Notes under the pieces: model-generated
What the model was told of the DNA's origin: nothing
Seen by the model: only the letters and a program-made list of their open reading frames with translations
Database searches by the model: none
Translations under genes and position numbers: made by a program
Source: Bryobacterales bacterium
Lineage (GTDB): Bacteria > Acidobacteriota > Terriglobia > Bryobacterales > UBA6623
DNA: 64,000 bases
Assembly (NCBI GenBank): GCA_028819235.1
Contig: JAPPMC010000154.1
Location: forward strand, 1 to 64,000
Direction: 5' to 3'
In this document: piece after piece, positions 47,420 to 50,231 of the stretch
How the letters are laid out: every line of letters begins with the position of its first letter
How positions within the stretch are numbered: position 1 is the first letter of the stretch

Positions 47420-48155
47420 CGATGCGACGAAGGGCCCTGTTTGGGAAGAACGATCGCGCCTTGGAGGCCGCGGTTCCGCATCGGGGGAAGCGACTCGACT
47501 ATGGGGAGCCCTCAGAGCGGACCACTTGGCTGCTGGACCAGGCCTCGGGGCGTCCGTCTACGGGCCGGAATTCCGCTCGGCTTCGACAGCCCCTTGGATT
47601 CGGGCGACAAGCGCACTGCCAGAGTCGCAATCCTCGCTCCACGAAGCCACGGACTGCAGCGTGTCTTCAGAACGCAGGGATTGCAGCGTCCCCGCCAGCG
47701 AACTTGCGAGGCCTTCGCCAAACCGAGCACGCGCAATGCCCAGAATCACGCCCTCGATGCGCGCCCGCTTGGCTTTTGACTGCGCCCGTCTGAGGGCAGC
47801 CGCCAGCCGCTCCGTCTTGGCCCGCTCCATTTCCACCCACGTCATCTCTCGCTCCAGGACCTCCTCCACCAAGTCCAAGTCCTTCACCGGAACCGCGTCC
47901 GGATGCATCAGCCTTCCCTTCAGAATCGTCTGCACACATGTTACTAGCGCTTGGCGAGCTGCCTCCTCGTCCGACCTGCCCTCCAGCCATTCAGTCCACA
48001 TTTCGACCTCTCTCAAGGCGTGATCGACCGCTCCCTCGCGCTCGATCTGGAATACGCCCTCCGCGACGTCTCGAAAGGCCCGTGGCAGGTCTTCGCAACG
48101 GTGTGCGCGTCCACCAAGAGGTACTTCAGCTGGAGATCGCACGGACTCGCCCTGT
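47420..48155 (-). repeat. Degenerate tandem duplicate of the Rpn locus (copy 2)
   Basis: Aligns to about 48632-49388, including roughly 130 nt beyond the stop codon; homology ends near 48155. Confidence 0.75.
47558..48155 (-). pseudogene. 5'-truncated, frameshifted Rpn-family gene retaining an open C-terminal coding region
   Basis: EDLPRAFRDVAEGVFQIEREG...ERNSGP matches the C-terminal half of the gene at 48765-49889; 2-nt insertion near 48101-48106 (ACGGTGTGCGCGTCCACC vs ACGGTGCACGTCCACC); N-terminal half absent. Confidence 0.75.
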
Positions 48156-48631: not shown

Positions 48632-49388
48632 CTGATGCGACACAGAGCTCGGGCCAGAACGATCGCGCCTTGGCATCCGCGGTTCGCCCCGGCGGAAGGA
48701 ATTCAACTATGGGAAGCCTTCACCGTGGCCCCCTGGCCGCTCGACCGGACCTCAGGACGTCCGTTTACGGGCCGGAATCCCGCTCGGCTTCGACGGCCTC
48801 TTGAATTCGGGCGACCAGCGCACCGCCAGTCTCGCAACCCTCGCTCCACGATGCTACCGACTGCAGCGTCTCTTCGGACCGCACGGATGGCAGCGTCCTC
48901 GCCAGCGAGCTTGCGAGGCCTTCGCCAAACCGAGCACGCGCTATGCCCAGAATCACGCCCTCGATACGCGCCCGCTTGACTTCGGACCGCGCCTGTTCGA
49001 CTTTGGACTGCGCCCGCCTAAGGTCAGCCGCCAGCCGCTCCGCCTTGGCCCGTTCCATCTCCACCCACGTCATCTCTCGCTCCAATAGCTCCTTTAGCTG
49101 ATCCAAGCCCTTTACTGGAACCGCCTCTGGATACTTCAGCCTTCCCCTCAGAATCGTCTGCACCCATGTTACTAGCGCTTGGCGCGCTGCCTCCTCGTCC
49201 GATCTGCCCTGCAGCCAGCCGTGCCACACTTCGACCTCTCTCAGGGCACGGTCGACCGTCCCCTCGCGCTCGATCCGGAATACGCCGTCCGTGACGTTTC
49301 GCAAGGCCCGTGGCAAGTCTTCGCTACGGTGCACGTCCACCAAGTGGTATTTCAGCTGGAGATCGTACGGACTCGCCCAGTTCGCCGA
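48632..49388 (-). repeat. Tandem duplicate unit of the Rpn locus (copy 1, within and downstream of the intact gene)
   Basis: Matches 47420-48155 by direct reading of both strands. Confidence 0.75.
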
Positions 49389-49889
49389 CACCCTCCTCAG
49401 ACCCGCCAAGTCCGTCTTGGCGTTCCAGGCTCCGCCTCCGCTGTACAGGACTATCGGCAGCACCTGCGGGATTCTCCGCTGCTGCTTCACACGTGCGTTG
49501 CTTCTCATGAGCTCCAAGATCACATGGCTGACGTATAGCGCCATGCGGGCTGCCATTCTCCAGTCGGGGCGGTGTTGGAACTCGAGCATCAGCGTGACAA
49601 AGAGGTTCTCCCCGCCCTTCATCGCCACCTCCCAAACCAAGTCGTTCGCACTTCTGGCCAAGTTCTCTGCGACATGCTGCGTCTCGGCTCGGCGCAGTGT
49701 GCTGAAGTCGAGGCGGTCGGTGAATCCCTCGCTCGTGAAGCCGCGCAGAAAGTCCTTCATCATCGTCGCGGAGCCGTACAGCAGCCTGTATGCTCCATCG
49801 CGGTCGATCGGTTCCCTGAATGGCGAAGGCGCGGGATTGTTTGCTGCTTGGGTATTGCTGGAATCTTGGCCCAGATGTCTCTCACTCAT
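48765..49889 (-). CDS. Rpn family recombination-promoting nuclease / putative transposase (PD-(D/E)XK)
   Basis: DGAYRLLYGSATMMKDFLRGF, LVWEVAMKGGENLFVTLMLEFQHRPDWRMAARMALYV, LPIVLYSGGGAWNAKTDL; helical C-terminus. Start at ATG 49889 is predicted. Confidence 0.9.
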   Translation of the reverse strand: MSERHLGQDSSNTQAANNPAPSPFREPIDRDGAYRLLYGSATMMKDFLRGFTSEGFTDRLDFSTLRRAETQHVAENLARSANDLVWEVAMKGGENLFVTLMLEFQHRPDWRMAARMALYVSHVILELMRSNARVKQQRRIPQVLPIVLYSGGGAWNAKTDLAGLRRVSANWASPYDLQLKYHLVDVHRSEDLPRALRNVTDGVFRIEREGTVDRALREVEVWHGWLQGRSDEEAARQALVTWVQTILRGRLKYPEAVPVKGLDQLKELLEREMTWVEMERAKAERLAADLRRAQSKVEQARSEVKRARIEGVILGIARARFGEGLASSLARTLPSVRSEETLQSVASWSEGCETGGALVARIQEAVEAERDSGP

Positions 49890-49949
49890 GGCTGATCTTG
49901 GGGATTGGCCCCGCACACGCGATCGAAGGTGATTCGCTTCTCTCTACTG

Positions 49950-49955
49950 AGTATA
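49950..49955 (-). promoter_or_regulatory. Extended -10 element upstream of the Rpn gene
   Basis: Minus strand TGGTATACT (TG-n-TATACT) about 60 nt before ATG in an AT-rich stretch; no good -35. Confidence 0.4.
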
Positions 49956-50231
49956 CCACATAGACGTTGTATATTCTTGTATATCACCAGTTCTATACAT
50001 AATATTTTCGCATTCGCGCGGATATCTTGCGAAACTATGGACCTGTGACCGATCCGGACCGTGCCCGGGCTTGCGCGTTGGACGGCACCAATGGAGCGGC
50101 CTCGGCATTCGGCCTAGGGAGGGAGGTAGCTTCAGCCGGGCGGTCCGGCGACGCGGTGTGCCTATGGAGTTCGCTTGGGGCCGGACGCGCCCTAGGCGTC
50201 TCAGGATCCGCGGCCCGTGGGTGGCAGGCGA

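Follow-up and report, generated by a model that had tools for sequence, protein, structure and literature searches.

The closest described systems are the RpnL/RpnS pairs of Escherichia coli (RpnA, B, C, E and P2), in which a nuclease gene also encodes its own small C-terminal protein. In RpnA the internal start is M244, as proved by mutation (Zhong et al. 2023, PMC10327210). The small protein blocks the toxicity, the SOS induction and the DNA cleavage of the long protein, and for RpnA the block of cleavage was also obtained in vitro (PMC10327210). The helix repeats of the E. coli proteins are four-residue units which set the RpnL-RpnS specificity, and at rpnE-ypaA a copy comprising the C-terminal domain (C-domain) only lies downstream of the complete gene (PMC10327210); the first helices (helix 1) of RpnE and YpaA differ in length by four residues.

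The window analysed here (64,000 nucleotides of contig JAPPMC010000154.1 of a Bryobacterales bacterium) carries an rpn gene which shares with these systems the PF04754 nuclease domain followed by a helical C-domain, a junction ATG in the same alignment column within GGAG-N6-ATG-Thr, a variable number of helix-1 repeats, and a C-domain-only copy downstream. Its features, in window coordinates, are as follows.

49889-48765, minus strand: full-length Rpn ORF (RpnL-like), 374 aa, ATG at 49889
49317-49799, minus strand: PD-(D/E)XK-type nuclease domain, residues 31-191, PF04754 match
49083-49080, minus strand: Shine-Dalgarno-like (SD) GGAG, 6 nt ahead of the internal ATG
49079-49074, minus strand: 6-nt spacer CGAGAG between GGAG and the internal ATG
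49073-49071, minus strand: ATG of M273, candidate start for internal translation, in the frame of the 374-aa ORF
49073-48765, minus strand: candidate RpnS-like C-terminal protein, 102 aa, predicted all-helical
48966-49007, minus strand: two 7-residue (21-nt) repeats of helix 1, SKVEQAR SEVKRAR, beginning 22 residues past M273
48155-47407, minus strand: partial tandem copy of 49381-48621, 82% DNA identity, stop at 47558
47855-47843, minus strand: GGAG-CGAGAG-ATG in the partial copy, geometry as in the window gene; would start a 95-aa RpnS-like protein
49620-49634, minus strand: competing SD-ATG, GGAGGTG-GCG-ATG (M90, ATG at 49622), within the nuclease domain

The ORF matches Pfam PF04754 (Transposase_31, YhgA-like, that is Rpn) with E=2.1e-18 and 67.1 bits against a curated cut-off of 21, which bears out the Rpn identity proposed in the first-pass annotation; on this profile match it is an Rpn/YhgA-like protein (PF04754, COG5464). 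The residues D83, E103 and Q105 (pattern D83...E103-x-Q105) are invariant in 18 of 18 aligned genus members, and the same D...E-x-Q pattern of the PD-(D/E)XK active site is present in E. coli RpnA/B/C/E in the profile alignment. The closest named relative (91% amino acid identity) is carried by L047, a MAG contig from the Bryobacterales (Acidobacteriota). The region upstream of the gene (49900-50020), rich in A+T and well conserved between the window and L047, is probably the rpn promoter; a sigma-70 consensus was not matched there, in a scan that is poor for this taxon. Association with defence genes is a reported tendency of RpnL/RpnS systems, not a defining feature; among the seven neighbours scanned there were no PADLOC hits, and the neighbours are metabolic.

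With a profile made from the genus sequences, E. coli RpnA/B/C/E can be aligned across the junction (E from 1e-31 to 1e-37), and M273 shares its column with M244 of RpnA/B/E. The first-pass annotation had called the ORF a distant homolog of E. coli Rpn, which is correct, and had placed GGAG, spacer and internal ATG right to the base; the in-frame segment is exactly the 102 aa it quoted (M273 plus 101 codons, then a stop), with a calculated mass of 11.1 kDa against its estimate of about 11 kDa. The two systems also differ. E. coli RpnA, B and E have AAGGAG-N6-ATG and Met-Thr-Ile, whereas the window gene has the weaker GGAG-N6-ATG and Met-Thr-Trp. The C-domain is 102 aa long in the window gene and 49 in RpnA, and the repeat unit comprises 7 residues instead of 4. 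Transcripts start internally in E. coli, whereas no internal sigma-70-like promoter was recognised in the window gene (by the same scan, poor for this taxon). The E. coli pairs were shown experimentally, while the window gene is known here from its sequence alone. Other Acidobacteriota PF04754 proteins (L140-L169), some with DUF4351 (PF14261) C-domains, have an SD and a junction ATG that belongs to the motif M-x-[ST]-[IL]-A, and carry 4-residue helix repeats; the window C-domain gives no match to the DUF4351 (PF14261) model.

Taken by itself, the SD-ATG of M273 is near chance, and its own SD is uninformative. Of the 197 internal ATGs in the long ORFs of the window, 11.7% have an SD at least as good, and when the peptide was recoded synonymously with the family codon usage, an equal or better SD appeared in ~45% of draws (P ~0.45). 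The mRNA folding around the internal ATG is unremarkable (z = -1.55). Since the SD is weak, the site by itself would not carry the claim of an internal start, and these figures would suit an explanation in which the SD-ATG is a by-product of a helical linker rich in Glu and Arg (LLEREMTW) and of the high GC content of the genome: the relatives use internal starts, in the window lineage the start has been weakened or lost, and the long protein is the sole product. We consider this possible, though on the unlikely side, as M273 and its GGAG are kept in all three copies of the lineage, the geometry is exactly that of E. coli, and M273 has the best SD among the ATGs kept in L047. M90, where the SD-ATG is the strongest in the ORF, was tried as the true internal start; its SD surpasses that of M273, but the residue is Thr in the 91%-identical L047, and M90 was therefore judged incidental. 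What raises M273 above chance is its position, as seen by comparison.

The comparison within the genus covered 89 Rpn-like ORFs, and a strong SD+ATG was defined by a contiguous pairing of -10.9 kcal/mol or better at an allowed spacing. The anti-SD GGATCACCTCCTT is present in four of four genus genomes searched; a search for a longer form in the assembly of the window itself gave nothing, probably because the rRNA is missing there. Strong sites number 52 among 406 in-frame ATGs, and 38 of the 52 fall within profile positions 230-249, the nuclease/C-domain junction, where 67 of the 406 ATGs lie (Fisher p=1e-23, a value inflated by the relatedness of the genus sequences). The position of the junction ATG varies with the subfamily (237/238, 241, 245 or 246, and 247 in the window gene). 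Paralogs with EVLEM, LEGEM or EVKENM junctions have the domain order of the window gene and an SD-ATG at the junction, with a usually stronger SD. Most paralogs lack a Met at the exact M273 column and have the ATG 1-10 residues further upstream, so the start is conserved as a zone and not as a residue. The junction SD is GGAGG, GGAGGTG or GGAGGTGA in most subfamilies, far stronger than that of the window lineage, which is among the weakest; these stronger SDs at shifted positions also fit a start lost or weakened in this lineage.

The codons used at the junction point to selection on the SD itself. For an unchanged peptide, the genus junction ATGs are preceded by a stronger SD than expected from codon usage (Stouffer p=3e-4 for 15 representatives below 70% identity, and p=7.7e-6 for 25 below 80%), whereas the ATGs of the nuclease domain, used as genus controls, show no codon bias towards an SD. 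Glu-Val pairs are written GAGGTG in 7 of 7 cases at the junction and in 18 of 37 elsewhere (p=0.014, dereplication at 70%), or in 25 of 29 and 39 of 88, respectively (p=8e-5, dereplication at 95%). Synonymous conservation per column is modest: codon conservation is highest at V238 among the Val columns, and E237 ranks fifth of 16 Glu columns.

The same picture is found in the phylum. Of the 347 Acidobacteriota genomes sampled, 16 contain PF04754, and a strong SD precedes 19 of the 94 ATGs located after the nuclease domain against 0 of 98 inside it (p=4.6e-7). Many of these junction ATGs stand in the motif M-x-[ST]-[IL]-A-[EQ], which is the E. coli motif, with SDs of up to AAGGAGGTGA (L161). 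In the codon test, 21 genes (one of them, L170, from a viral-contig record) reach a Stouffer p=3.5e-4, compared with p=0.88 for 73 control ATGs; as a positive control, the E. coli genes reach P values of 0.07-0.17 each. Judged by codon choice, the SD at the rpn junction is under codon-level selection in both genus and phylum. As this comparison shows internal starts to be kept by selection across the phylum, the intragenic arrangement of E. coli is probably general among rpn genes. The proposal of the first-pass annotation that the window gene may use the E. coli layout is well supported by the homologous column, the SD geometry and the retention of M273 in the relative and in the partial copy, and further by the junction-specific enrichment of SD+ATG and the codon-level selection on the SD in genus and phylum.

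Between the window gene and L047 the full-length reading frame and its ATG are conserved, with dN/dS of ~0.2 over the whole length and 0.11 in the C-domain, which indicates that the complete copy is under purifying selection. M273 and the surrounding 22 nt (TGGAGCGAGAGATGACGTGGGT), including GGAG, are identical in the window gene, L047 and the partial copy. Related genes were found in 10 of 11 genus genomes, with the maximum of 24 rpn-like places in the genome of the window itself, and in 0 of 50 other genomes searched in the family and order; within the order, the rpn expansion is restricted to the genus. Several of the 24 places carry internal stops or truncations.

The partial copy just downstream (48155-47407), absent from the first-pass annotation, lacks the nuclease domain and retains an intact C-domain. 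It has a frameshift before residue 187, from where the frame is open to the stop, and it shares 80% amino acid identity with the window gene over residues 186-374. Its dN/dS is 0.40 upstream of the ATG and 0.27 downstream, and an estimate for its own branch (from three pairwise values) is similar on both sides. The copy was considered as a proven separate rpnS gene, and this was rejected for want of a clear contrast in constraint across the ATG. Its frameshift and relaxed constraint, together with the number of damaged rpn-like places in the genome, agree with a decaying locus, an array of duplicated and degenerating rpn genes whose C-terminal fragments survive by chance. The constraint on the complete copy speaks against such decay, which we hold to be the least probable of the explanations considered.

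C-domain-only ORFs also occur elsewhere in the genus, on other contigs or in other genomes. They directly follow complete rpn genes in L052, L053 and L092, and in L072 a complete gene is followed by a C-domain-only ORF with a diverged partner; the others stand alone. Separately, L056, L065 and L082 carry nuclease-domain ORFs in which the family match stops just short of the C-domain, at profile position 235-236; the one in L065 is followed ~1.15 kb later by a C-domain ORF.

The AlphaFold2 model of the 102-aa protein (three sequences, pLDDT 93.8) is all-helical, with helices at residues 3-49, 51-63, 67-77 and 83-99. The full-length model (two sequences) has low confidence for residues 1-231, so that the nuclease part is unusable; in this low-confidence model the first of these helices starts at residue 262 and spans the junction. 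A PDB fold search with the predicted C-domain gave no match at E<=0.001, and 7TH0, the RpnA-S structure, which is about half the length of the window C-domain, was not listed. The predicted long helix and helical bundle are typical of oligomerisation parts, and internally translated subunits such as Cas11 are known (cited in PMC10327210); the small protein could then be made as a partner subunit of the nuclease, for example one for stoichiometric dimerisation or DNA binding, and not as an antitoxin. We give this little credence, as the E. coli small proteins prevent both cleavage and toxicity, and that of RpnA also prevents cleavage in vitro (PMC10327210).

The partial copy has a single 7-residue unit in helix 1, the window gene has two and L047 has three, and at DNA level a 21-nt tandem repeat is present at 48967-49017. 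The other repeat-bearing members of the genus have a period of 4, or of 8 (2x4). Neighbouring rpn copies (L089, L090, L092, L094, L053 and L105) have first helices whose lengths differ by 4 or 8 residues, and those of the window by 7, even where the rest of the C-domain has 93-100% DNA identity; this was considered as a special pattern of neighbours and set aside, because the differences are real but close homologs generally differ as often. Steps of seven residues would keep the phase of the helix, while steps of four would shift it. A tentative extension, which we think unlikely as it stands, is that the window lineage adjusts the coiled-coil 'lock' between the nuclease and its intragenic antitoxin in whole heptads instead of the four-residue steps of the family, that partial tandem duplication would then yield neighbouring C-domain-only proteins which differ in helix length and are non-cognate, and that specificity would be set by length alone.

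The reading we favour, with moderate confidence, is that translation does start internally at M273 and yields an inhibitor of the RpnS type. The rpn gene would be a gene within a gene, with a long product of 374 aa combining the PD-(D/E)XK nuclease and the helical C-domain, and a second start at the junction yielding the 102-aa C-domain alone. By analogy with E. coli, the long first helix of the small protein would join it to the corresponding domain of the full-length protein, and the paired small protein would keep the nuclease inactive for as long as no phage or stress signal shifts the balance. From this analogy we infer translation of the small protein, toxicity of the long one, their binding, the antitoxin action and a role in phage defence for the window system. 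At sequence level the window gene belongs with the known RpnL/RpnS kind, and its repeat unit is unusual.

Intragenic antitoxins have been shown in E. coli, and one C. difficile gene has likewise been found to give an RpnS product. In Acidobacteriota, the codon-level signal specific to the junction indicates that rpn internal starts are selected far beyond these two species, and an SD+ATG at the PF04754/C-domain junction offers a simple sequence test for any rpn gene. The seven-residue variant of the window lineage would provide a natural test of whether the length or the phase of the helix sets toxin-antitoxin specificity.
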